A stretch of 60,668 bases of DNA from an uncultured Fluviicola sp. (GTDB lineage: Bacteria > Bacteroidota > Bacteroidia > Flavobacteriales_D > Crocinitomicaceae). How positions within the stretch are numbered: position 1 is the stretch's first letter; each line of letters begins with the position of its first letter. Positions 2,025-60,668 of this stretch are shown here, piece after piece. Both the position numbers and the translations under genes were made by a program. Under the pieces are notes generated by a model. It was not told the DNA's origin and made no database searches. It saw only the letters and a list, made by a program, of their open reading frames with translations. The stretch lies in contig NZ_CABHOL010000046.1 of the NCBI RefSeq assembly GCF_902168135.1, positions 1 to 60,668 of the forward strand, in the 5' to 3' direction.

Positions 2025-2257
2025 AAAGTTAAAATTGAAAAAGAGAGAAAACTTCGCTTCCGTTAAACATCAGGCATCAACACCGTTTCTCTTCAATTCC
2101 CGCCTTTCAATTATCACTTTCAGATTAACAAGTTATTAACCTTTGAATCAAAGCAATAACAAGCAAATCAAAGCGTTAAGAAGGTTTAAACGAAGCATTT
2201 GTTCTTATTCTGTTAATATTTATACTGAAAAAAGGGTGAATTTTTGACGGATACATG
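2025..2257. other. intergenic region with imperfect inverted repeats
   Basis: There is no gene between the esterase and the pckA promoter. Just past the esterase stop are two AT-rich, partly self-complementary tracts (about 2022-2055 and 2088-2125: AAAGTGAAAAG with AATTGAAAAAG, against TTCAATT with ATCACTTTC). They could form an extended imperfect hairpin and act as a weak terminator. I see no conserved RNA fold in the rest. Confidence 0.35.
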
Positions 2258-2265
2258 TACTTTTG
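2258..2265 (+). promoter_or_regulatory. candidate -7 element of pckA promoter
   Basis: TACTTTTG matches the Bacteroidota -7 consensus TAnnTTTG exactly and lies 75 bp before the pckA ATG. No TTG is found at the usual 17-23 bp upstream, so the -33 element is absent or degenerate. Confidence 0.5.
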
Positions 2266-2280
2266 CACCGAAATAAGTTA

Positions 2281-2314
2281 GCCTTTACGCTTTCGCAGTA
2301 GCTTCAGCGAAGGC
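2281..2314 (+). promoter_or_regulatory. hairpin in the pckA 5' leader
   Basis: GCCTT-TA-CGCT pairs with AGCG-AAGGC (2306-2314), giving a stem with a two-base bulge close to the expected 5' end of the pckA transcript. It may stabilise the mRNA or be a repeat remnant: the word AGCTTCAGCG (2300-2309) recurs inverted downstream of pckA at 4085-4094. Confidence 0.4.
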
Positions 2315-2340
2315 ACAAGGGCAAAACAAAAAGACATTTT

Positions 2341-3951
2341 ATGAATGAATTTGGTAAACGAGGAAAAAACGCCGATTTAAAAGCAACTATCGGATTAGAA
2401 AATCTCGGTAACGTATTTTGGAACTTAACGCCAGCAGAACTAGTAGAAGACACTATCATCAGTGGTCAGGGTGTGTTAACGGACACCGGGGCAATCGCTA
2501 TTGAAACAGGTGAATTCACTGGTAGATCTCCGAAAGATCGTTTTGTTGTTCGCGATGCTAACACAGAAAACAGTGTTTGGTGGGGTGATGTTAACATTCC
2601 TGTTTCTACAGAACAATTCGATGCGTTATACAACCGCATGAAGGCTTATTTGATCGGGAAAGACCTGTATGTGCGTGATGCATATGCTTGTGCTGACGAC
2701 AAATTCAGAATGAACATTCGTGTAACAACCGAGTTCCCATGGTCAAACATGTTTGCATACAACATGTTCCTTCGTCCGACAGATGCTGAGATTGAAAACT
2801 TTGACGCTGAGTGGAACATCGTTTGTGCTCCGGGATTCAAAGCTGATCCTGCAATCGACGGAACACGCCAGTCGAATTTCGCAATTTTGAACTTCACTCG
2901 TAAAATGATCATTATCGGTGGTACGGGATATACAGGTGAAATCAAGAAAGGTATTTTCTCTGTATTGAACTACGTATTGCCACACGAGAAAAATGTACTT
3001 TCCATGCACTGCTCTGCAAACGTAGGAGAGAATGGCGATACAGCAATTTTCTTTGGGTTGTCAGGAACAGGAAAAACAACTTTATCTTCTGATCCGAACC
3101 GTCGTTTGATCGGTGACGATGAGCACGGCTGGTCTGATAATACGGTATTCAACTTCGAAGGAGGTTGTTACGCAAAAACAATCGATCTTTCCAAAGAAAA
3201 AGAACCGCAGATTTACGATGCAATCAAGTTTGGAGCAATTTTGGAAAACATCGGTTTCCACGAAGGTACTTCAACTCCTGATTACACAGATGGTTCTATC
3301 ACAGAAAACACACGTGTTTCCTACCCTATCGATTACATCGACAATATCATGAGTCCGTCTATCGGGTCAGGACCCAAAAATATTTTCTTCCTTACAGCTG
3401 ATGCATTCGGTGTATTGCCTCCGATCTCCCGTTTGACGAATGAGCAGGCTATGTACCACTTTATGTCGGGATATACAGCTAAAGTTGCAGGAACTGAGGT
3501 TGGTATTACAGAACCGACAACAACGTTCTCTGCTTGTTTCGGAAAAGCATTCTTACCGCTTCACCCTGCGAAATACGCAAAATTATTGGGTGAAAAATTA
3601 GAAGGTACAGACATTAAAGTGTGGTTGATCAACACAGGTTGGTCAGGTGGTTCTTACGGAGTTGGAAGCCGTATGAAATTATCTTACACACGTGCAATGA
3701 TTACAGCTGCATTAACAGGGAAATTGGATAACGCAGTTTACGAAACATTGCCGGTATTCGAATTATCATTCCCTACTTCTTGTCCGGAAGTTCCAAGCGA
3801 GATCCTGAATCCGCGTGAAACCTGGGCAGATAAAACAGCTTATGACAAAACTGCCAACCATTTGGCTGATCAGTTCGTTAAGAACTTTGAACAGTTTGCG
3901 GCAGAAACATCAACAGATATTTTAGCAGCAGCTCCTAAGGTTACTGTTTAA
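2341..3951 (+). CDS. pckA: phosphoenolpyruvate carboxykinase (ATP)
   Basis: This enzyme converts oxaloacetate and ATP to phosphoenolpyruvate, ADP and CO2, the cytosolic entry step of gluconeogenesis. The 536-residue length is typical. The ATP-type signature is clear: the P-loop GLSGTGKTT at about residues 239-247, followed by RRLIGDDEHGW with metal-binding acidic residues, and FEGGCYAKTIDLS. The substrate-binding GRSPKDRF lies near the N-terminus. The ATG at 2341 begins right after an A-rich stretch with no Shine-Dalgarno sequence. The gene stands alone between a promoter-like motif and a strong terminator, so it is probably monocistronic. Its product could also feed the PEP-using ComA homolog encoded at 44.0-44.8 kb; that link is an inference. 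Confidence 0.97.
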   Translation: MNEFGKRGKNADLKATIGLENLGNVFWNLTPAELVEDTIISGQGVLTDTGAIAIETGEFTGRSPKDRFVVRDANTENSVWWGDVNIPVSTEQFDALYNRMKAYLIGKDLYVRDAYACADDKFRMNIRVTTEFPWSNMFAYNMFLRPTDAEIENFDAEWNIVCAPGFKADPAIDGTRQSNFAILNFTRKMIIIGGTGYTGEIKKGIFSVLNYVLPHEKNVLSMHCSANVGENGDTAIFFGLSGTGKTTLSSDPNRRLIGDDEHGWSDNTVFNFEGGCYAKTIDLSKEKEPQIYDAIKFGAILENIGFHEGTSTPDYTDGSITENTRVSYPIDYIDNIMSPSIGSGPKNIFFLTADAFGVLPPISRLTNEQAMYHFMSGYTAKVAGTEVGITEPTTTFSACFGKAFLPLHPAKYAKLLGEKLEGTDIKVWLINTGWSGGSYGVGSRMKLSYTRAMITAALTGKLDNAVYETLPVFELSFPTSCPEVPSEILNPRETWADKTAYDKTANHLADQFVKNFEQFAAETSTDILAAAPKVTV

Positions 3952-48052: not shown

Positions 48053-48087
48053 TGATTTGCTCCGAATCTAACCAATTTTCCCGAAAT

Positions 48088-49092
48088 CTAAGACAAATTA
48101 ATGGCGTTAAAAACTTCTGCCAAAATGCCGTAGGACCTCAATCGTTTCTCGTTGTCGAAAATATTTCCGGTGATCATCAGTTCATCTACTCCGTGTTCAT
48201 CAATAAAACGGCTAAACTTTTCAATCAGCGTGTCTTTATCTCCGACAAATGTACAGGCTGTCATTTCCCGAACGGCATCCAATAACTCTTGCGGCCAGGA
48301 ATCCAGTAAGTTTGGAATGGGCGGAGACAGTGGCTTTCTGGAATTTGTCAGGATGCCTGAAAACATTTGATACAAGCTCATGGATAACAATTCTGCTTCT
48401 TCATTGCTATCAGCGGCAATCCCGTTCACGCATGCCAATACATAAGGTTTATCCAGGTATTGAGAAGGTCGGAAATTATTGCGGTAAATCTGCACAGCAA
48501 TTTTGAATTGTCTGGGTGCAAAGTGTGAGGCAAATGCATACGGCAGTCCCATTTCTGCAGCCAAATAAGCGCTGTCTGTGCTTGAACCAAGTATCCAGAT
48601 TGGAATATTCAATCCTTCACCGGGAAAAGCGCGTACCGAAGCCGTTCTGTTACTTTCACTAAAATAGGTTTGCAGCGCAGTCACATCTTTTGGAAACTGG
48701 TATGCTGTATTCAGATCTCCTCTTCTCAAAGCCGTGGCTGTTTGCTGATCCGTTCCGGGAGCCCTTCCCAATCCCAGGTCAATGCGCGAAGGATAAAGGG
48801 TTTCTAGTGTTCCGAATTGCTCTGCAATTGCTAACGGGGCATGATTTGGAAGCATGATTCCTCCTGATCCAACCCGGATACTTTTCGTTTGAGAGGCCAC
48901 ATGACCGATCAGAACAGAAGTTGCAGAACTGGCTATAAACTCCATATTATGGTGCTCTGCCAGCCAAACGCGTTCGTACCCTAATTCTTCTGCCTTTTTT
49001 GCTAAATCTACTGTTCTTTTAATGGCTGTTGCGGCATTGCCGTCCTTGGTAATCACGGATAAATCCAGGACGGAATATTTGATTTTTTTCAT
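48088..49092 (-). CDS. LLM-class flavin-dependent oxidoreductase
   Basis: This is a luciferase-like monooxygenase of 334 residues, using reduced FMN (or F420 in other phyla). The TIM-barrel family pattern is clear: [28 protein letters not shown], then [42 protein letters not shown], matching the YhbW/LuxA-like group with a short specific type 1 domain. The substrate is unknown. The start ATG at 49092 gives the conserved KYSVLDLS strand. Confidence 0.88.
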
Positions 49093-49235
49093 GGGTTAAA
49101 ATTACGGATTGAAGAGGCAAAGACAAATTGGAATACGTTAAATTTTGTAGTTGGTTTCCTGGAAGAAACCAGGTAAAGCTTATCATCCGGAGATCACAAA
49201 TCAATAATTGAGATACTGTGAAAAAATGCAGAACA

Positions 49236-49267: not shown

Positions 49268-50605
49268 GTGAAAAATATCCTGATTATAGATGACGAAGAA
49301 AAGCACCGATCTTTACTTGCCCGAATTATCCGTTCGGAAGGATATGAAGTCTGTGAAACCGGCGATTGTGCTTCCGGACTAAAAAAGCTGGCCCAAAAAC
49401 CAATAAATGTCATTCTTTGTGATGTAAAACTCCCTGATGGAAATGGGATTGAGCTTGTTCCGAAAATTAAGGAACGCTTTCCGGATACCGAAATCATTCT
49501 CCTGACTGCATTCGGAAATATTGCTGATAGTGTACAATCCATGAAAGACGGCGCATTTGACTATATCGTCAAAGGAAATGACAACGACAAGATTATTCCA
49601 TTACTGTCGCGTGCATTTGAGAAAGTAGCACTCAGAAACCGTGTCCGCGACCTGGAAAAGCGTGTCGGTAAAAAATACACTTTTGATTCGATCATCGGGA
49701 ATTCCTCTGCCATTTTAAAAGCAATCGAACTGGCCCGAAAGGTTTCTGTAACAGATGCAACCGTTTTACTTACAGGAGAAACGGGTACCGGAAAAGAAGT
49801 TTTCGCAGAAGCCATCCATTTGGCAAGCAGCCGGTCGAACAATAGCTTCGTAGCACTCAATTGCAGTGCTTTTAGCAAGGAAATCCTTGAAAGTGAGCTA
49901 TTCGGGCACAAACAGGGATCATTTACAGGTGCTGTCAAAGATCAGAAAGGACTCATTGAGGAAGCAAACGGCGGAACACTTTTCCTGGATGAAATCGGAG
50001 AAATGCCCTTGGAATTACAGGCAAAACTTTTAAGATTATTAGAAACTTCCGAATATTTAAAGATTGGTGACACCAAACCAAGCCACTCCAATTTCAGGCT
50101 GATTGCTGCTACCAACAGAGACTTGAAAAAAGAATCGGAAGAACAGCGTTTTCGATCAGATCTGTATTTCAGGCTAAACGTTTTTCAGGTAGAACTACCT
50201 TCTTTAAAAAATCGTGTAAAGGATCTTAAGCTGCTAACGAAGCATTTTGTAGAGCAATTCTCTGCAAAGTCTAACCGAAAAACCTTAGGTATTGACGAGA
50301 GTTTCCTGGAAAAACTGAGCTTGTATTCCTGGCCGGGAAATATCCGTGAATTGAAGAATATTGTAGAACGCGCGGTTATTTTGGCCGACAATGATGTTCT
50401 TACAGTTGATGACCTTCCACCCGAAATTCAATTTGTTCACGAACAAAAGAATAACACCTTATCCGCATTCTCCATGGCGAGCGTTGAGAAATTGCACATT
50501 TTAAAAGTCCTCAATCACACCAAGGGAAATAAAGCCGAAGCAGCACGCTTATTGGAAATCGGCATTGCAACCCTGTACCGGAAAATTGAAGAATACAAAT
50601 TATAA
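49268..50605 (+). CDS. NtrC-type sigma-54-dependent response regulator
   Basis: This is a 445-residue transcription activator. The receiver domain (1-120) has Asp8/Asp9, the phospho-acceptor Asp52 (ILCDVKLP), Thr80 and Lys102. The AAA+ domain (about 140-375) has Walker A GETGTGKE (about 170), the sigma-54-contacting GSFTGA (about 217), Walker B GTLFLDEIGEMP and the arginine-finger region (RFRSDLYFRL). A Fis-type HTH (about 410-445) ends AARLLEIGIATLYRKIEEYKL. The start is GTG at 49268, right before the first beta strand. It precedes the kdp genes and probably replaces KdpE as partner of the kinase encoded at 58.2 kb. Confidence 0.93.
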   Translation: MKNILIIDDEEKHRSLLARIIRSEGYEVCETGDCASGLKKLAQKPINVILCDVKLPDGNGIELVPKIKERFPDTEIILLTAFGNIADSVQSMKDGAFDYIVKGNDNDKIIPLLSRAFEKVALRNRVRDLEKRVGKKYTFDSIIGNSSAILKAIELARKVSVTDATVLLTGETGTGKEVFAEAIHLASSRSNNSFVALNCSAFSKEILESELFGHKQGSFTGAVKDQKGLIEEANGGTLFLDEIGEMPLELQAKLLRLLETSEYLKIGDTKPSHSNFRLIAATNRDLKKESEEQRFRSDLYFRLNVFQVELPSLKNRVKDLKLLTKHFVEQFSAKSNRKTLGIDESFLEKLSLYSWPGNIRELKNIVERAVILADNDVLTVDDLPPEIQFVHEQKNNTLSAFSMASVEKLHILKVLNHTKGNKAEAARLLEIGIATLYRKIEEYKL

Positions 50606-50629
50606 GTCATAAGCTATCATTTTGATAAG

Positions 50630-50656
50630 AGCCTATCATTTTGATAGGCTTTTTTT
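50630..50656 (+). terminator. terminator after the response-regulator gene
   Basis: AGCCTATC (50630-50637) pairs with GATAGGCT (50643-50650), with a six-T tail. A degenerate direct copy of the same hairpin word (AAGCTATCATTTTGATAAG) immediately precedes it. Confidence 0.85.
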
Positions 50657-50731
50657 ATACTCAAAATCCCCTCCGTTTTCTAAAACTCCTATTTATCAGC
50701 TCATTGAATCTGTGTGCCATTAATTGGAACG

Positions 50732-50745
50732 GCAATTGGCATTGC
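50732..50745. promoter_or_regulatory. candidate operator dyad upstream of the kdp transcript
   Basis: GCAAT-TGGC-ATTGC is a perfect 5-bp inverted repeat, 20 bp before the ATG at 50765. A wider GCCA/TGGC pairing lies around it (50716-50740). It may bind the regulator, but no strict sigma-54 -24/-12 element with the GG-N10-GC spacing is seen beside it. Confidence 0.35.
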
Positions 50746-50764
50746 GCATTTAAAATTTTAAAAA

Positions 50765-51043
50765 ATGATGCACAATAGAACCAATTACAGACGAATGAAC
50801 CATTTGGCTGAATTAACCAAACAGTATGTGTTGAAAGGAAATTTCAAACGCGTAAATGATTGCCTTGCTATCGCTGAACACCAGTTACGCACAGGAACGG
50901 CAGAAATGAGAAATGCTGTCATAAACGGTTTCCTGTTTTCCTACAGCTGTTTTATGGAAATGAACAGAACAGCTTTAAACATTCCTCTTCCGGAATTATT
51001 GGAGAAAGAGTACGTAAAGCAAGTAAATGCTTTCGGGGTTTAA
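50765..51043 (+). CDS. small soluble protein at head of the kdp operon
   Basis: This is a 92-residue helical, basic protein without a signal or membrane segment (start MMHNRTNYRRMNHLAEL). Cys41, Cys65 and His48 are the only metal-like residues I notice. I do not know its family with certainty. It is the first gene after the terminator, and the next genes follow at 10-bp and shorter gaps, so it belongs to the kdp transcript. It could be a regulator or adaptor of Kdp; this is inference. Confidence 0.65.
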   Translation: MMHNRTNYRRMNHLAELTKQYVLKGNFKRVNDCLAIAEHQLRTGTAEMRNAVINGFLFSYSCFMEMNRTALNIPLPELLEKEYVKQVNAFGV

Positions 51044-51053
51044 ACGGCTGTTT

Positions 51054-51137
51054 ATGGAAGCAACATTACTCTGTACAATAACACTCCTGCTCTTTTGGCT
51101 GTGTTACAAAGCCGTTCAATTTTTTGAAAAGGTATAA
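51054..51137 (+). CDS. 27-aa single-helix membrane peptide before kdpF
   Basis: This frame begins with ATG 10 bp after the preceding stop and encodes 27 residues, mostly one hydrophobic helix (ATLLCTITLLLFWLCYKAVQFF) with a charged end (EKV). It stops 2 bp before the kdpF ATG. Its position and size suggest a second KdpF-like subunit or regulator. It is too short to assign by similarity. Confidence 0.5.
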   Translation: MEATLLCTITLLLFWLCYKAVQFFEKV

Positions 51138-51139
51138 TC

Positions 51140-51217
51140 ATGACAGCATTATTTATTCTTGCGATAGCCGTGTTCATTTACCTCGGCTATGTACTTCTCA
51201 AACCTGAAAAATTCTAA
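51140..51217 (+). CDS. kdpF: K+-transporting ATPase subunit KdpF
   Basis: This is a 25-residue single-helix peptide (ALFILAIAVFIYLGYVLLKPEKF). The GYVLLKPEKF end is typical of KdpF, which lies at the KdpA-KdpB interface and stabilises the complex. It begins 2 bp after the preceding peptide gene and ends 3 bp before kdpA. Confidence 0.85.
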   Translation: MTALFILAIAVFIYLGYVLLKPEKF

Positions 51218-51220
51218 TCC

Positions 51221-52948
51221 ATGAATACCCAATTATTTGGCGTTATTGCCATGTTTATTCTTACCGTTGCGATCGCTATTCCTTTGGGAAGGTATATCGG
51301 GAAGGTTTACCTGGGAGAGAAAACCCTGCTTGATCCTGTTTTTAACCCGGTTGAACGCTTTCTCTTTCGTATCAGCGGTTTGGACGGAAACCGGGAAATG
51401 AACTGGAAGCAGCACATTTACGCGCTCCTGGGCATTAACCTGGTTTGGTTCTTTATCTGCTTTTTAGTGTTATTGAACCAAGGCTGGCTTCCATTGAACC
51501 CGGATCACAATCCTTCGATGTCACCTGACCTTGCATTCAATACAACCATTTCCTTTTTGGTGAATTGCAACCTGCAGCATTATTCAGGTGAAACAGGACT
51601 TTCCTACCTCTCACAAATTGGCGGCATTATGTTCCTGCAATTTGTGACAGCCGGAACAGGAATGGCGGCCTGCGCCATGGTTTTCAATGCCATGCGAAAC
51701 AGACAAAGCAATCAGCTGGGCAATTTTTACAACTACTTCATCAAAAGTTGTACACGTGTCCTACTGCCCGTTTCTTTTGTTGCCTCGGTTATCCTGGTTG
51801 TAAGCGGTACTCCCATGACCTGGGAAGGAAAACAAACAATCACAACGCTGCAGGGAGAAGAACAAATCGTTTCCCGAGGGCCCGCGGCCGCAATGGTCGC
51901 TATCAAACAAGCCGGTACAAATGGAGGCGGATTTTTCGGGGTCAACTCTGCCCATCCGCTGGAAAACCCAACTTACCTGACAAACATGGTGGAGAACATT
52001 CTCATTGTATTGATCCCGATCGCTATGGTTTTCGCATTGGGCTATTACCTGAAACGAAAGCGAATGGCTTGGATGATTATGGGAGTTATGACCGTTGGAT
52101 TTCTGGCATTGTTCCTTCCATCCATTACCAATGAGGTCAAAGGAAATCCGGCAATCACGGAAATGGGAATCGATCAATCAGCCGGAAGCATGGAGGGAAA
52201 AGAAGTACGTCTCGGAGCTGAAGCGTCTGCATATTGGGGAATTACCACCACCGTTACTTCCAACGGTTCCGTAAACTCCATGCACGACAGCTTTACCCCG
52301 ATTACCGGTGGAATGGCCATGCTCGGGATGATGGCAAACTCTTTTTACGGAGGGGTTGGTGTCGGATTCCTGAATTTCTACATTTTCATTATTCTGGCGG
52401 TGTTTATTTCCGGGTTAATGGTAGGCCGTACACCCGAATTCTTAGGGAAAAAAGTAGAAGCCCGGGAGGTGAAAATCGCAGCGTTCATTGCAATTCTTCA
52501 CCCACTGCTGATCCTTGCCGGAACAGCACTTTCATCCTGGCTGGTTTCCCACAACACAGCTATGGGATATTGGTACAACGGAAATGCATCCGCCTGGTTA
52601 AACAATCCAGGATATCATGGCTTTTCGGAAATGCTTTACGAATATACTTCCAGCGCTGCAAATAACGGAAGTGGTTTCGAAGGCTTGTCAGATAATAATC
52701 CTTTTTGGAATATTACCACCGGGATCGTCTTGCTGTTAAGCCGTTATTTACCGATCATCGGGCCACTGGCCATTGCCGGATTACTGGCAGGCAAAAAGCA
52801 CATCCCGGAAAGTGCAGGAACACTTCGAACCGACACACCGATTTTCGGAATTATGATTTTCGCTGTGATTTTCATTGTTGCTGCCCTATCCTTTTTTCCT
52901 GCACTTGCATTAGGACCATTCGCTGAATATTTCTCTCAAATTCATTAG
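51221..52948 (+). CDS. kdpA: K+-transporting ATPase subunit KdpA
   Basis: KdpA is the K+-selective channel-like subunit of the high-affinity KdpFABC pump in the inner membrane. The length of 575 residues and ten or so helices fit (E. coli 557). Selectivity-filter segments are recognisable: [46 protein letters not shown], and [17 protein letters not shown]. The C-terminus has [22 protein letters not shown]. It follows kdpF by 3 bp and precedes kdpB by 5 bp. Confidence 0.97.
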
Positions 52949-52953
52949 AAATC

Positions 52954-54993
52954 ATGAGTAATCAACAAATAGCTTTATTTGACAGACAACTTGTTAAAGA
53001 TGCTTTCAAAGAGTCTTTCATCAAGTTCAAACCACAGATTATGTGGAAAAACCCGGTCATGTTCACTGTAGAGATTGGAACAGCTGTCATGCTTGCAGTT
53101 TGCATTTCCATTCTTGCCGGAGCACAAAACCAGGGAAGTTTCGGTTACAACATTACCATCTTTCTGATCCTTTTCGCCACTTTGTTGTTTGCTAATTTTG
53201 CAGAAGCACTGGCAGAAGCACGCGGAAAAGCACAGGCAGACAGCCTGAGAAAAACCAGGGAAGAAACTCCGGCAAAACAACTATTGGAAAACGGTGAAAT
53301 TCGTTCGGTCAATTCCTCCGCCCTGCGCAAAGGAGATATTTTCATCTGCGAAACAGAAGATACCATCCCAACCGACGGAGAAATCATTGAAGGAATTGCA
53401 ACAATCGATGAAAGCGCCATTACCGGTGAATCTGCACCGGTTATTCGGGAGGCCGGCGGAGATAAGAGCAGTGTAACCGGCGGAACAAAGGTTTTATCGG
53501 ATAAGATCAAAGTGGTAGTGACCACAGAACCGGGTGAAAGCTTCCTGGATAAAATGATTGCTTTGGTAGAAGGTGCAAGCCGTCAGAAAACGCCCAATGA
53601 AATTGCACTGACAATTCTGCTTGCGGCTTTTACACTCATTTTTATCATTGTATGTGTTACTTTAAAACCATTCGCCGATTACGCTAACACACCGATAACA
53701 ATCGCTGCATTCATCTCTCTGTTTGTCTGCCTGATCCCAACCACAATCGGCGGATTGCTTTCTGCCATAGGGATTGCCGGAATGGACCGTGCACTGCGGG
53801 CTAATGTTGTAACCAAATCCGGAAAAGCGGTAGAAACTGCCGGTGATATAGACGTTCTGCTGCTTGATAAAACCGGTACTATTACCATCGGGAATCGCAA
53901 GGCAACGGCTTTTCATCCTTCCAATGACCGGGACAAGAAATACCTGATCAAATGTGCTGTTTTGTCTTCCTTGAAAGATGATACGCCGGAAGGGAAATCC
54001 ATTCTTGAACTGGCTCAGCAATTGGGTACAGATGTAGAAACGCTCCGCAAAAGTGCATTTTCTGCAACATTTATCCGATTCACTGCAGAAACCCGGAGCT
54101 CCGGAATACAATTAGAAGGAACCACGATTCGCAAAGGTGCTTTCGATGCTATTCGAAACATCGTAGAATCCGCAGGAAATATCTTTCCCAATGAGACTAT
54201 CACAGCCGTTACAACGATTTCCAGTAACGGTGGAACTCCCCTTGTTGTTTGTGAGAATAACCAGGTAATCGGAGTAGTTGAATTACAGGACATTATCAAA
54301 CCAGGAATCCTGGAGCGTTTTGAAAGACTTCGTAAAATGGGAGTTAAGACGGTGATGGTAACAGGAGACAATCCGTTGACTGCCAGATTCATTGCCGAAA
54401 AAGCAGGTGTAGATGATTTTATCGCAGAAGCCAAGCCGGAAGACAAAATGACTTACATCAAGAAAGAACAAGAAAGCGGGAAACTGGTTGCCATGATGGG
54501 AGACGGTACCAATGACGCTCCGGCATTGGCTCAGGCAGATGTGGGTGTAGCAATGAATAGCGGTACCCAGGCTGCCAAAGAAGCCGGGAACATGGTGGAT
54601 TTAGACAATGATCCAACAAAACTGATCGAAATCGTTGAAATTGGAAAACAGCTGCTGATGACACGTGGAACTTTGACGACTTTCTCTATTGCAAACGATA
54701 TCGCAAAATATTTTGCAATAATTCCTGCCTTGTTTATCGTGTCTATTCCATCGTTAGAGGGATTAAATATCATGCACCTCCACAGTCCGGAAAGTGCTAT
54801 TCTTTCTGCTGTAATCTTTAATGCATTAATCATTCCGGCATTGATTCCACTGGCTTTGAAAGGAGTTGCGTATAAACCAATAGGAGCCAGCGCCATTCTT
54901 CGCCGCAACTTGTTGATCTACGGGCTCGGAGGGGTTGTCATTCCTTTTGTCGGGATCAAATTACTCGATTTATTCATCTCACTCTTCATTTAA
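52954..54993 (+). CDS. kdpB: K+-transporting P-type ATPase subunit KdpB
   Basis: KdpB is the catalytic P-type ATPase of 679 residues. The actuator motif TGES ([11 protein letters not shown], about residue 155), the phosphorylation motif DKTGTIT (Asp about 305), the nucleotide-binding segment with [12 protein letters not shown], and the hinge motif [29 protein letters not shown] are all intact. The TGES serine is the site whose phosphorylation shuts the E. coli pump. The next gene starts 12 bp after its stop. Confidence 0.97.
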
Positions 54994-55005
54994 AAAATAG
55001 AAATC

Positions 55006-55581
55006 ATGATAAAGAAAATAATCTCTGTTAACATTTTTACTTTCGGGTGTATGATCCTGCTTTCCGTTGCCTACCCGCTCCTCATTTCAGGAATCGGGAA
55101 ACTAACTCCAGGCCAGGGAAAAGGCAGAACTGTTTCTTATAAAGGAAAAACCGTTGGATTCACGCAGGAAGGACAGCAATTTACTGATAACCGGTATTTC
55201 TGGGGAAGACCATCTGCTGTTGGTTATAATGGTTCAGGAAGCGGTGGCAGTAATAAAGGTCCTTCAAACCCGGTATATCTGGAGGAAGTTGAAAAGCGTA
55301 TTGACACATTCCTAATCTGTCATCCGTACCTGGAACGAAAAGAGGTGCCTGCGGAAATGGTTACAGCTTCCGGAAGTGGTCTGGACCCGCATATTTCTCA
55401 AAAAGCAGCGGAAGTGCAGATCAAACGAGTAGCCCGGGCAAGAGGATTGGACGAACAGGAAGTTCGGTCACTGGTCAAAAAACACATGGAACCTCCTCTT
55501 CTAAACGTCTTCGGGCCACAAAAAATCAATGTCCTGGAGCTAAACCTGGCATTGGAAAAGCATCAAACGAATAACCAATAA
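55006..55581 (+). CDS. kdpC: K+-transporting ATPase subunit KdpC
   Basis: KdpC is a 191-residue subunit with one N-terminal transmembrane helix (about 8-25) and a periplasmic domain that stabilises the pump. Typical family motifs are FWGRPSAVGYNGSGSGGSNKGPSNP (about 65-89), SGSGLDPHIS (about 121-130) and the RGL-type helix that follows it. Confidence 0.95.
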   Translation: MIKKIISVNIFTFGCMILLSVAYPLLISGIGKLTPGQGKGRTVSYKGKTVGFTQEGQQFTDNRYFWGRPSAVGYNGSGSGGSNKGPSNPVYLEEVEKRIDTFLICHPYLERKEVPAEMVTASGSGLDPHISQKAAEVQIKRVARARGLDEQEVRSLVKKHMEPPLLNVFGPQKINVLELNLALEKHQTNNQ

Positions 55582-55673
55582 AATTTCACCTATTAAACAC
55601 TCTCGAAGCAGAGGAGTTGTACAATTTCAGTAAAATAATCCAAGAAAACGGATACCACAAATAATAAAACAAA

Positions 55674-57032
55674 ATGAAAAAAATCACTACGTGTATTGCG
55701 GTTGCAATCAGTTTACAACTTGCTGCACAGCAAAATGAAACAGCAGAAAAAATTCCCTTCGACGGGATCGACATGACCTGGCATAATGGTGGAGATCGTC
55801 GGGATTCCGCTATCTGGACAAGTAAATATTTCACTCCGGTTATCATGATTGACGTGAATTACAATTATTCATTCAATAACCCGATTGATAACACTGTTGT
55901 AGGTTCTACAGCTATGGCCCGTCACAATGAAGTTCAGTTATCATCTGCAAATTTGGGCGCGGATTTTAATTATAAGGGTGCTCGTGGACGCATCGTTACC
56001 CAATTTGGCACAAGATCAACGGTTGTTCCAAGAAATGATTACAGCCCTTACAAAGGACAGTATGAATTGGCGAATGTCTACCGTTATTTGAGTGAAGCTT
56101 ACGCAGGTTATCATTTTAAAAAATGGTACGGAATTAATGTGGATGCGGGGATGTTCATGTCTTACATCGGATTGAACTCTTACTACCAGAATGAGAACTG
56201 GGAATACCAGGCTTCTTTTACCTCAGACAACACACCGTGGTTCTTTAATGGATTGAGAGTTCAAATCCACCCGTCAAAAACACTGAAGATCGAGCCGTGG
56301 CTAATCAACGGCTGGCAGAGTTATGGAAAATTCAATGCCATGCCAGGATTCGGAGCAAATATTACCTGGATTCCTAACAGCAGCGTGAAGCTTTTGACCA
56401 ATGATTATTACGGAACTGATGCAGCAGGATTGAAAGACCGTAAGCGTTTCCATTCCGACAATAGTTTATTAGTAAGGTACTACAACAGACCGGAATCAAA
56501 AGGAATCAGCCGCATGGCGTTCTCTCTGACCGGTGATTTTGGTTTCGAAAAAGGAGGCGGTGTAAACGGATTGAAAAACGGAGACAGTATTGAAGGACCA
56601 GCTCAGTACTTTGCCAGTCTCATGTTCTACAACAGAATCTGGTTCGGAAAGAATAAATTTGCATGGACAATCGGTGGTGGTGTTATGACAAACCCGGGGC
56701 GATACCTGGTACTTTACCCGACCGGACAAGCAAGTCCGCTTCCTAATCCAAACGATCCTACCCAAACTGCAGGAGCATATCCTTTCAGCGCGAATCCCGG
56801 AGATCAGTTCAAAGGCTGGGACATTTCAACCAATTTCGACTGGATGCCAAATCAGAGTATTACATTCCGCGCAGAGTTGATTCATCGTCAGTCGAGTGTT
56901 CCTTACTTTGCCGGGCACGGAGGTGTAACCTCTCCAACAGGTTACACCACTACACCGCTTCCTTCAGACTGGAGACCTGATCTTGTAAAATCAGAGACTC
57001 GACTGGTATTTGCTATCCTGTTCAGAATCTAA
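55674..57032 (+). CDS. outer-membrane beta-barrel porin in the kdp operon
   Basis: This 452-residue exported protein has a signal peptide at 1-19 (ITTCIAVAISLQLAAQ) and a mature part of alternating hydrophobic/polar beta strands with many aromatic and Gly residues. It ends in a strand with ETRLVFAILFRI. The shape is that of a Bacteroidota porin of about 16-18 strands. It sits between kdpC (92 bp gap) and the KdpD gene, so it may help K+ cross the outer membrane. The channel role is inferred from the barrel shape and the neighbours. Confidence 0.78.
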   Translation: MKKITTCIAVAISLQLAAQQNETAEKIPFDGIDMTWHNGGDRRDSAIWTSKYFTPVIMIDVNYNYSFNNPIDNTVVGSTAMARHNEVQLSSANLGADFNYKGARGRIVTQFGTRSTVVPRNDYSPYKGQYELANVYRYLSEAYAGYHFKKWYGINVDAGMFMSYIGLNSYYQNENWEYQASFTSDNTPWFFNGLRVQIHPSKTLKIEPWLINGWQSYGKFNAMPGFGANITWIPNSSVKLLTNDYYGTDAAGLKDRKRFHSDNSLLVRYYNRPESKGISRMAFSLTGDFGFEKGGGVNGLKNGDSIEGPAQYFASLMFYNRIWFGKNKFAWTIGGGVMTNPGRYLVLYPTGQASPLPNPNDPTQTAGAYPFSANPGDQFKGWDISTNFDWMPNQSITFRAELIHRQSSVPYFAGHGGVTSPTGYTTTPLPSDWRPDLVKSETRLVFAILFRI

Positions 57033-57105
57033 ACGAAAGTAGGTTATTATTGGTTTAAACAGTCGTATCTTTCCGGTGCGGCTGTTTTGAAGTTTACACT
57101 CGGTC

Positions 57106-58230
57106 ATGACAGAAAAGGAAAACAATGTAAAGCACTTTTTAGAGCTCATCCAGCGTTCCCGACGAGGAAAGTTCAAAGTATACATCGGTATGAGTGCCGG
57201 AGTCGGTAAAACATACCGTATGCTCCAGGAAGCACATTCCCTGCTACGAAATGGAATTGATGTAAAAATCGGTTACATTGAAACCCACGGACGTGAGGAA
57301 ACAGAGGAATTGGTAATTGGACTGCCTATTATCCCGAGAAAACAACTCTTTTATAAAGGCAAGAATCTCGAAGAAATGGATTTACAGGCAATTATCAACC
57401 TTCGTCCGGAGGTGGTAATTGTGGATGAATTGGCCCACACCAATATCGAAGGTTCCAAAAACGAAAAGCGCTGGCAGGACATCCTGGACATTCTGGAAGC
57501 AGGAATCAATGTTATCAGTGCCGTAAATATCCAGCACATTGAAAGTCTGAACGGAGAAATCAAGCAAATTACCGGCATTGAAGTTTCCGAGAGAATTCCT
57601 GACAGCGTATTGCAGCTCGCTGATGAGGTCGTAAATATAGATCTGACTTCCGACGAACTGGTAAACCGCTTAAAAGAGGGAAAAATATACACGGCAGATA
57701 AAATACAGCGGGCACTCACCCATTTCTTTAAGTCGGAAAACATTCTGCAGTTAAGAGAATTAGCCTTAAAAGAGGTTGCCAGCCAGGTTGAGCGTAAAGT
57801 AGAAGCCGAAATTGCCCACGATGTCTCATTCAGACATGAGAAACTACTGGCCTGTATCAGCAGCAACGAAAAAACAGCAAAAAAAGTAATCCGGAAAACA
57901 GCGCGTCTTGCGAATTATTATCACAGCAAATGGTTTGTATTATACGTTCAAATACCATCTGAAAGCAATGACCGCATACCTTTGGACAAACAACGTCATT
58001 TAATTAATAATTTCAAGCTAGCTACTGAATTGGGAGCACAAGTTATCCGACTCGAAGAACAAAATGTCACAGATGCCATTATGAAAGTTGCTGAAGAAAA
58101 AAAGATAACAACACTTTGTATCGGGAAACCCCATTTCAGTTTATTTAAAGTCATCATGGCAACCTCTGTTTTTAACAAATTACTCAATAAATTAGCCGAA
58201 ACGGATATAGATTTAATTATTCTTTCCTGA
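57106..58230 (+). CDS. kdpD: stand-alone KdpD input module (KdpD + USP domains)
   Basis: This 374-residue cytosolic protein equals the N-terminal half of KdpD, the K+/turgor sensor. The KdpD domain (about 20-230) carries Walker A GMSAGVGKT (residues 28-36) and Walker B VVIVDELAHTN. A universal-stress-protein-like domain follows (about 245-374, with LACISSNEKTAKKVIRKTARLA). The four-helix membrane domain, GAF and histidine kinase of classic KdpD are absent. A separate kinase gene starts 3 bp later, so this is a split sensor. Confidence 0.93.
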   Translation: MTEKENNVKHFLELIQRSRRGKFKVYIGMSAGVGKTYRMLQEAHSLLRNGIDVKIGYIETHGREETEELVIGLPIIPRKQLFYKGKNLEEMDLQAIINLRPEVVIVDELAHTNIEGSKNEKRWQDILDILEAGINVISAVNIQHIESLNGEIKQITGIEVSERIPDSVLQLADEVVNIDLTSDELVNRLKEGKIYTADKIQRALTHFFKSENILQLRELALKEVASQVERKVEAEIAHDVSFRHEKLLACISSNEKTAKKVIRKTARLANYYHSKWFVLYVQIPSESNDRIPLDKQRHLINNFKLATELGAQVIRLEEQNVTDAIMKVAEEKKITTLCIGKPHFSLFKVIMATSVFNKLLNKLAETDIDLIILS

Positions 58231-58233
58231 ATT

Positions 58234-59961
58234 ATGAAAATTAAAACAAAACTCACGCTTGGAGTCGGACTTCTCTTTCTATTGATCATCCTGTTATCAC
58301 TAGTTTCAGGCGGTTATATCCTAATGCTGAAAGCTGATACCAATAACATTTTGAAAGCCAACTACAACAGTTTGAACTATTCTCGCAAGATGTTACTATC
58401 ACTTGACGAAGAAACGGAAGATAAAACTGCGGAAAAACGTTTCAGAACGAATCTCCGGCTTCAGAACAAAAACATCACCGAACCCGGTGAAAATGAACTT
58501 ACCCAGCGTTTAAACGATCATGTAGCCGAAATGAATAACACCAGTAAAAACAGGGAACATTTCCGCAAATTAATCCGACAGGATATTCTGCAGATCATGC
58601 AGTTAAACATGACTGCTATCCAGCGAAAAAGCCAGCTTGCAGATCAATCATCCAATGATGCACTATTCTGGATCTTTTTAACCGGAAGTTCCTGTTTCAT
58701 CATTGCTTTCGTATTACTGGTTCAGCTACCCAAAAACATCGCAAAACCAATAAAAGAGCTCACGAATAGTATCCGTCAGATTGCTTCCAGAAACTACAAG
58801 CAACGAGTAGCTTTTGAAGGGCACAGTGAATTCGGAGATCTTGCGAAATCGTTCAACAGCATGGCAGAGAAGCTGGATGAATACAACAGCACGCAACTGG
58901 CAGAAGTATTGAATGAAAAGAAGCGGATCGAAACCCTTATCAATAATATGAATGATCCGGTGATCGGTTTGGATGAACAAGGAAAGATCATGTTTGTAAA
59001 CAACGAAGCGATTCACATCCTTAATCTTTCCAAATCCGAGTTAATGGGAGCTGCTGCAAAAGAACTTGCATTATCCAACGATTTGATGCGCACATTACTT
59101 CGTGATCTTCCGACGGAAACAAGTCCTCAAAAAACAGCCAATGCTATCACGATACTCAACAATGGTAAAGAACAATATTTCGAAAAAGAACTGATCACAA
59201 TTGCTACAACACATACTGAAGAAAGTGAGCAGCAGTCAATCGGAAACGTCATCATACTCCGAAATGTAACGTCATTTAAAGAACTGGAATTCGCCAAAAC
59301 GAATTTCATGGCTACCATTTCGCATGAATTGAAAACACCTATTTCTTCTATTAAAATGAGTCTTCAATTACTGGAGAGAAAAGATGTAGGAGCCGTTAAC
59401 GAAGAACAAATGAACTTAATCAATAGCATCCGTGAAGACAACGAACGCCTATTAAAAATAACGGGGGAATTACTGAACCTTACTCAACTAGAGACCGGGA
59501 ACATCAAATTATACATGCAGTCTTCGGATCCGTATCAAATAATTAATTATGCTGTCGAAGCAGTAAAGAAAGAAGCTGAACACTTTGGAGTACGAATACA
59601 AATCCTCACAGAGAAAAATCTTCCGAATCTATCCGCTGACACAGATAAAACACAATGGGTTTTAATCAATTTACTGGTCAATGCCATTCATTATTCACCT
59701 GCAGGAGAAACGGTCACGATTTCCTTAAAAGAATCCGGGAGCCAGCTGCGATTTGAAATAAAAGATCAGGGAGACGGTATAGCTGATGAATACACCTCAC
59801 GCATTTTTGACCGGTATTTCCAGGTTCCGGGGATCAGCAAACCCGGTACAGGTCTTGGACTTGCCATTTGCAAAGAGTTTATAGAAGCTCAGGGAGGAAC
59901 AATTGGTGTTGAAAGCAGTTGTGGTCAAGGAAGTACTTTCTTTTTCGTACTAGACCTCTAG
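58234..59961 (+). CDS. HAMP/PAS sensor histidine kinase of the Kdp system
   Basis: This is a 575-residue membrane kinase. Transmembrane helices at about 7-30 and 145-165 enclose a periplasmic helical sensor region. A HAMP domain (about 166-218), a PAS domain (about 230-345, PVIGLDEQGKIMFVNNEA), a HisKA domain with phospho-acceptor His364 (ISHELKTPISSIK), and an HATPase_c domain (about 450-572; VLINLLVNAIHYSP, GTGLGLAICKEF) follow. It starts 3 bp after the KdpD module and, with the upstream NtrC-type regulator, completes the signalling pair; the response regulator gene is at the other end of the block. The pairing is inferred from position. Confidence 0.92.
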   Translation: MKIKTKLTLGVGLLFLLIILLSLVSGGYILMLKADTNNILKANYNSLNYSRKMLLSLDEETEDKTAEKRFRTNLRLQNKNITEPGENELTQRLNDHVAEMNNTSKNREHFRKLIRQDILQIMQLNMTAIQRKSQLADQSSNDALFWIFLTGSSCFIIAFVLLVQLPKNIAKPIKELTNSIRQIASRNYKQRVAFEGHSEFGDLAKSFNSMAEKLDEYNSTQLAEVLNEKKRIETLINNMNDPVIGLDEQGKIMFVNNEAIHILNLSKSELMGAAAKELALSNDLMRTLLRDLPTETSPQKTANAITILNNGKEQYFEKELITIATTHTEESEQQSIGNVIILRNVTSFKELEFAKTNFMATISHELKTPISSIKMSLQLLERKDVGAVNEEQMNLINSIREDNERLLKITGELLNLTQLETGNIKLYMQSSDPYQIINYAVEAVKKEAEHFGVRIQILTEKNLPNLSADTDKTQWVLINLLVNAIHYSPAGETVTISLKESGSQLRFEIKDQGDGIADEYTSRIFDRYFQVPGISKPGTGLGLAICKEFIEAQGGTIGVESSCGQGSTFFFVLDL

Positions 59962-59984
59962 ATTAATTACGAATTCATTAGATA

Positions 59985-60054
59985 AACCGAAAAGAATAAA
60001 AGGGCGCGGAGTTTGGTATTTTATTTTCTCTGTGCACTTGCATTCTTTTCGGTT
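59985..60054. terminator. long inverted repeat downstream of the kinase gene
   Basis: AACCGAAAAGAAT (59985-59997) is the perfect complement of ATTCTTTTCGGTT (60042-60054), with a 44-base loop and a following A run. It lies between the convergent ends of the kinase gene and the GNAT fragment, so it may be a bidirectional terminator, or a repeat. Confidence 0.5.
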
Positions 60055-60063
60055 AAAAAAACA

Positions 60064-60411
60064 CTAAGCCCGCATAAGTTTAACATTTGCCCATAATTGA
60101 GGGGTCAGCTCGTACGTGATATACGGGTACTTTTTTCCTTTGATTTCCTTCATGAAGTGTTCCTTTTCCACTACTCCAAACCTGGAAGTCCCTATCTGAG
60201 AACGGATGTTTTGTTCTGCAATTTCAAAAATAATTTTGTCAACGAACTGAAATGCATAATCCAACACCAATTCTTTGATAGCAAAATTATAGCTTCCTCC
60301 CCAATGGGCGCGGTCTAAGAAAGTCCCTCCGATCTTAACGGAAGCATTATTCTCATCATAATCATAATAACGGGTACTCCCAAAAATCTTATTTGTTCCT
60401 TCTCCCCAGCT
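60064..60411 (-). pseudogene. GNAT acetyltransferase, 5' end lost at assembly junction
   Basis: The open minus-strand frame from about 60411 to 60064 encodes a C-terminal piece of about 115 residues of a RimJ/RimL-type acetyltransferase. Typical segments are WGEGTNKIFGSTRYYDYDEN, IGGTFLDRAHWGG, EIAEQNIRSQIG, and KGKKYPYITYELT. Beyond the SWGEG segment the frame meets a stop (60424-60426) and the sequence becomes plant-like. The N-terminal half of the gene is absent, so the loss follows from the junction and not from decay. Confidence 0.8.
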
Positions 60412-60668
60412 AACTTGTGTAAGTTAAATTTTGATGGTTCAAAACTTAATAATGGTAATGCTTCTTTAGGCTTTGTGATTAGAAATAGTGGAGGTGATGT
60501 CTTGTTGGCTGGCGCCAAAGCTCTAGGTCCGAATATTTCTATTATCCAAGCCGAGGCTTGGGCTATGAAAGAACGAATTAGGGGAGCTCTCTCGCGTAGT
60601 ATCTCGATCTCATCCTATCATTGAAGGAGACAATTTAGGAGTTATCATATCTATGCATAACTCTTGGC
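60411..60668 (+). mobile_element. plant non-LTR retrotransposon RNase H-like fragment (frameshifted)
   Basis: The plus-strand frame from 60415 reads LCKLNFDGSKLNNG, GFVIRNSGGDVLLAGAKALG and IIQAEAWAMKERIRGALS, which is the plant-specific RNase H-like (RVT_3) domain typical of LINE-derived sequences. After a net one-base shift near 60600 the next frame continues SHPIIEGDNLGVIISMHNSW to the window end. The three acidic catalytic positions are seen (FDG, QAEA, EGD), on two frames. No bacterial gene fits. Confidence 0.85.

Follow-up and report, generated by a model that had tools for sequence, protein, structure and literature searches.

Two kinds of published observation bear on the contig end described here. 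Chimeric contigs with a short span of other-kingdom DNA at one end of a clean contig are labelled 'TRIM' by FCS-GX in passages of PMC10898089, and passages of PMC7417191 describe chimeric contigs in Illumina assemblies in which plant-like DNA is joined abruptly to an unrelated genome. Plant Ta11-type L1 retrotransposons contain an archaea-like RNase H domain, which passages of PMC5348765 place at the C-terminal end of ORF2 with a CCHC motif upstream. The DNA that we analysed (the window) is the entire contig C46, 60,668 bases long and one of the 56 contigs of a Fluviicola-type draft genome of 4,379,353 bases, for which the computed estimates of completeness and contamination are 99.87% and 0.91%. 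At the right end of this contig a bacterial acetyltransferase gene of the GNAT family passes abruptly into a short foreign sequence with an RNase H-like domain. We conclude that this junction is most likely an ordinary sequencing or assembly artefact and not a real feature.

The junction and the cut GNAT gene

An earlier note, made from the window's letters, placed a bacterial-to-foreign junction near 60,410. The junction is real as sequence, and its precise site was found by column-by-column comparison with stretch L009 of a sister genome, G002. Window 60063-60401 was identical to L009:1501-1839 at 322 of 339 bases in an ungapped alignment. The change came immediately after ...GTTCCTT, and beyond it 66 of 267 bases were identical to the G002 continuation, again ungapped, which is the chance level. 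A search with window 59900-60668 in 40 genomes, the window's own among them, found matches in seven other genomes. The main GNAT match ended at query bases 498-502 (window 60397-60401) in six of these (G002, G008, G001, G013, G007, and G012), and the seventh, G003, gave two short matches only. Among the matches listed, none extended past query base 502. Because the G002 alignment breaks at this point and the matches of the relatives stop by query base 502, we place the joint at 60401/60402. The AGCT that had been proposed as the switch or ligation point has to be given up, as it occupies 60408-60411, entirely within the foreign part, and six bases separate it from the end of the bacterial match. 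At the right end of C46, homology to the relatives breaks off and the remainder is unrelated to the genome.

Table 1. Features at the right end of contig C46 (window coordinates)
Feature	Position	Strand	Basis or remark
GNAT-family acetyltransferase gene, 3' part (residues 72-182 of 182), genuine chromosomal sequence	60064..60401	-	95% identity to G002 L009:1501-1839; PF13302, E 6.2e-6
Junction	60401..60402	.	last base matching the relative / first foreign base; column-by-column comparison with L009
Foreign 267-base tail that dangles from the end of C46	60402..60668	+	no other genomic copy beyond short chance-level matches; 66/267 versus sister genome; lowest of 112 contig ends
N-terminal half of an RNase H-like RVT_3 domain (positions 1-60 in a profile of 123)	60427..60603	+	profile match; starts 26 bases past the break
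FDGS motif	60430-60441	+	RVT_3 frame
AEAW motif	60550-60561	+	RVT_3 frame
Apparent RNase H-like continuation, different frame	60569..60667	+	EGDN at 60623-60634

The minus-strand GNAT gene is cut internally, as had been noticed, since residues 72-182 of 182 are present and the first 71 are missing when it is compared with the intact sister gene. The minus-strand frame 60064-60423 is open and matches the GNAT family PF13302 (Table 1). The 182-residue gene of G002 (L009:1502-2050) is uninterrupted and matches the same family with E 5.5e-15. The G002 stretch L009 contains one GNAT-like ORF, and G008 contains two in tandem (L010, which is G008:C24, 627-1184 and 1290-1838).

The window's own genome was searched with a 3339-base G002 query that includes the intact gene and its surroundings. 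Query bases 252-1360 matched C46:48064-49172, bases 1501-1839 matched C46:60063-60401, and bases 2046-3339 matched C7:30463-29177. Contig C7 is 30,465 bases long, so this last match ends two bases from its right end. The flanks of the junction are thus adjacent in the sister genome, and a continuation of the GNAT gene exists on another contig. The 206 G002 bases between the C46 and C7 matches had no match in the assembly at E ≤ 1. Because the G002 gene resumes on C7 206 bases past the break, the right ends of C46 and C7 are probably next to each other on the chromosome, with a gap of about 206 bases between them that falls within the GNAT gene, and the foreign piece would be a dangling tail; this adjacency is based on synteny with one sister genome. 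The last two bases of C7 differ from G002, and no longer foreign stretch follows the match. These two bases were considered as a possible adapter start, which led nowhere: the first two bases of the mosaic end terminate 7 of the 82 contig ends that carry no whole mosaic end, where about 5 are expected by chance.

The G002 matches at 48064-49172 and 60063-60401 of C46 lie on either side of a K+ transport island (window 49268-59961), which has a luciferase-like monooxygenase gene on one side and the GNAT gene on the other. It contains a sigma-54 response regulator, KdpA, a P-type ATPase at the position of KdpB, KdpC, a BBP2 porin, a KdpD sensor domain, and a histidine kinase. The luciferase-like monooxygenase and GNAT genes are about 0.6 kb apart or less in G002, G001, and G012. 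Among the 8 genomes searched, K+-island-like stretches are found at other locations in G003, G008, and G013. The island looks like a relocated cassette.

Adapters and composition of the contig ends

We examined the outermost 600 bases of all 112 contig ends of the assembly. A whole, outward-facing Nextera mosaic end was present at 30 of them. A genome-wide search for the mosaic-end pattern, with at most one mismatch allowed, returned the same 30 sites, none farther than 77 bases from a contig end, and the reversed pattern used as a control gave 0 matches. Twenty-one of the sites continue into the i7-side adapter and eight into the i5-side adapter, and one stops at the mosaic end. Three more contig ends terminate in a partial mosaic end, of 7, 12, and 16 bases, and one more in 5 bases of it. 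As far as the barcode, the adapter sequences agree with those printed for NexteraXT in a passage of PMC3906532. An 8-base word was found in its full context at 20 of the 21 i7-side ends (six kinds) and at 6 of the 8 i5-side ends (two kinds). We take these words to be barcodes, and the identity that we give to the strings following them is likewise our assumption. Since 30 of the 112 ends carry outward-facing Nextera adapter with several barcodes, the contig ends of this assembly hold library artefacts. The assembly appears to combine pooled libraries whose adapters had not been fully trimmed. The right end of C46 is not among the 30, and no mosaic-end adapter was found there or in the tail. 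The adapter finding is therefore circumstantial for this end. Within the window, the mosaic-end search gave one match with three mismatches at 55130, as expected by chance.

The composition of the contig ends was scored with a 5-mer model of native sequence, for which window 1-59900 of C46 alone served as training data. The last 267 bases of C46 scored -0.102 bits per base, the lowest of the 112 ends and below all of 224 interior windows (mean 0.054, standard deviation 0.031, minimum -0.024 bits per base). The 267 bacterial bases that adjoin the tail scored 0.048 bits per base. A second foreign contig end was ruled out among the seven lowest-scoring ends. The second-lowest, C34R, consists of 23S and 5S rRNA, and the next five comprise four with a whole adapter mosaic end and C51R with a 16-base prefix of it.

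The foreign tail and the origin of the joint

The plus-strand RNase H-like sequence that the earlier note had read to the right of the junction is there. Frame 60319-60624 on the plus strand matched RVT_3 (PF13456) with 31.5 bits against a curated cut-off of 21.6 (E 1.8e-7). A Pfam search with the frame containing EGDN (Table 1), taken alone, gave no match; EGDN presumably also belongs to the RNase H-like domain. Because EGDN follows FDGS and AEAW in another frame, the coding sequence is frame-broken. In our reading, FDGS, AEAW, and EGDN correspond to the first three of the acidic positions in RNase H. A D-E-D series of RNase H is named in a passage of PMC5348765. In a profile search the tail was the sole RVT_3 match in the genome. 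A search of the tail against its own genome returned the tail itself and six matches of 15-25 bases with E of 1 or more. NCBIfam gave no match to the tail. Searches of solved structures gave no match at E ≤ 1, with three at E 1.2-9.1 that bear unrelated names.

Relatives of the tail were sought in several collections. Pattern scans that require a shared 8-residue peptide, and that reach close relatives only, gave 299 pattern matches in 84,980 species genomes and 72 in viral contigs, none of which was confirmed. In 395 Bacteroidota genomes sampled from a larger set, the tail matched two, its own genome and G174. The G174 match (52% over 29 residues, 21.2 bits) lies inside a long repetitive ORF and was judged to be chance. 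Searches of plasmid and phage DNA and protein gave short matches only, with E of 0.07 or more. Comparison of the tail by blastn with the collected loci, the seven own copies of the region being excluded, gave nine matches of 14-25 bases with E of 0.05 or more. Thus a close bacterial genome with the same terminal sequence, which would have spoken against a chimera, was not found in the 40 genomes, the species-genome collection, or the 395 Bacteroidota genomes. The residue pattern of the tail appears similar to that of angiosperm LINE-type RNase H. Because of this pattern, and because no close prokaryotic relative was found, the tail is likely of plant origin.

We consider it very probable that the end of C46 is a chimera, in which a foreign scrap, whose likeliest source is the LINE-type RNase H of a plant, would have been joined at an assembly gap by a chimeric library molecule or read. 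The genuine C46 sequence would stop at 60401, inside the GNAT gene and at the gap, and its chromosomal neighbour would most likely be the right end of C7, about 206 bases on; the flanks that adjoin in the sister genome would then adjoin in this genome too. GNAT sequence would most likely have been fused to the scrap in a library molecule or read rather than through a computational misjoin at a shared word. The assembler, using this chimeric fragment or read, would have extended C46 by 267 bases into nothing. That C7 is the probable true neighbour, and that the tail has no other copy in the genome beyond chance-level matches, supports the chimeric assembly that the earlier note had suggested. 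Of its interpretation this part is supported, and the AGCT ligation point and the contamination of a plant project are not.

The donor of the scrap may be questioned while the chimera is retained. The tail could be an RVT_3 sequence contributed by a second organism in the mixture, bacterial or otherwise not a plant. Several barcoded libraries seem to have been pooled in the assembly, which leaves room for other organisms. An RVT_3 match by itself is no proof of plant origin, because the family is common in prokaryotes (our control gave matches in 11 of 14 prokaryote genomes, 6 of them over the cut-off) and oomycete retroelements carry related RNase H domains, as stated in a passage of PMC5348765. 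However, no close prokaryotic or viral relative of the tail emerged from the close-relative scans, the plasmid and phage searches, or the 395 genomes of one phylum, and the frame is broken within the domain. A non-plant donor is therefore unlikely, and a plant would most likely be the donor.

Another reading is that plant or other eukaryotic DNA was really inserted into the GNAT gene and that its first 267 bases alone were assembled. A real insert combined with an assembly gap would also be expected to split the gene over two contigs with the intervening sequence absent. The 206 unassembled bases do not decide the matter, because a plain gap and a real insert with a gap would both leave them missing. 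However, apart from two differing bases the C7 end has no foreign sequence, the tail's coding frame is broken, and the tail is absent from all seven other genomes matching this stretch; a true insertion is for these reasons very unlikely. Library artefacts at many of the assembly's contig ends also speak against it. The narrower claim, that a Fluviicola-type bacterium received a plant retroelement fragment in its GNAT gene by true plant-to-bacterium transfer, is slightly more improbable still.

That the window is part of a plant assembly, with the bacterial sequence as contamination of a plant sequencing project, has a negligible probability: both kinds of sequence do occur on one contig, but this contig is number 46 of 56 in a 4.38 Mb bacterial draft that is 99.87% complete, and zf-RVT, RVT_2, and Photo_RC were unmatched in the genome at E ≤ 0.1, a weak point since the RVT_2 control gave no match and the zf-RVT control never exceeded the cut-off. 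The direction of contamination is opposite to that proposed, the plant-like part being a 267-base scrap, a trace of foreign DNA within an assembly of bacterial or metagenomic origin.

With the C46 end read as a chimera, the importance of the finding is one of quality control alone. The last 267 bases of C46 should be trimmed, and adapter tails should be cut from the 30 other ends. Without trimming, the frame-broken foreign RNase H could pass as a bacterial gene or as a plant-to-bacterium transfer. An abrupt end of homology, together with a neighbouring contig that resumes just past it, makes a usable test for chimeras.

Comparison with known systems

The Ta11-type L1 retrotransposons of plants (passages of PMC5348765) are possibly the source of the RVT_3 fragment. 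Compared with these elements, the C46 tail contains half a domain, is frame-broken, and has no reverse transcriptase; it is too short to show the upstream CCHC motif, and the oomycete elements carry similar domains. The joint at 60401/60402 is as abrupt as those in the plant-DNA chimeric contigs of PMC7417191. The chimeras in passages of that paper have a viral partner and had reads mapped to the contigs, whereas the C46 chimera is known from the assembled sequence alone. In the FCS-GX test (passages of PMC10898089), 1-kb contaminants were added to contig ends, and the 267-base tail of C46 is shorter than these. Its arrangement is that of the 'TRIM' chimeric contigs, in which a short span from another kingdom likewise occupies one end of a clean contig.
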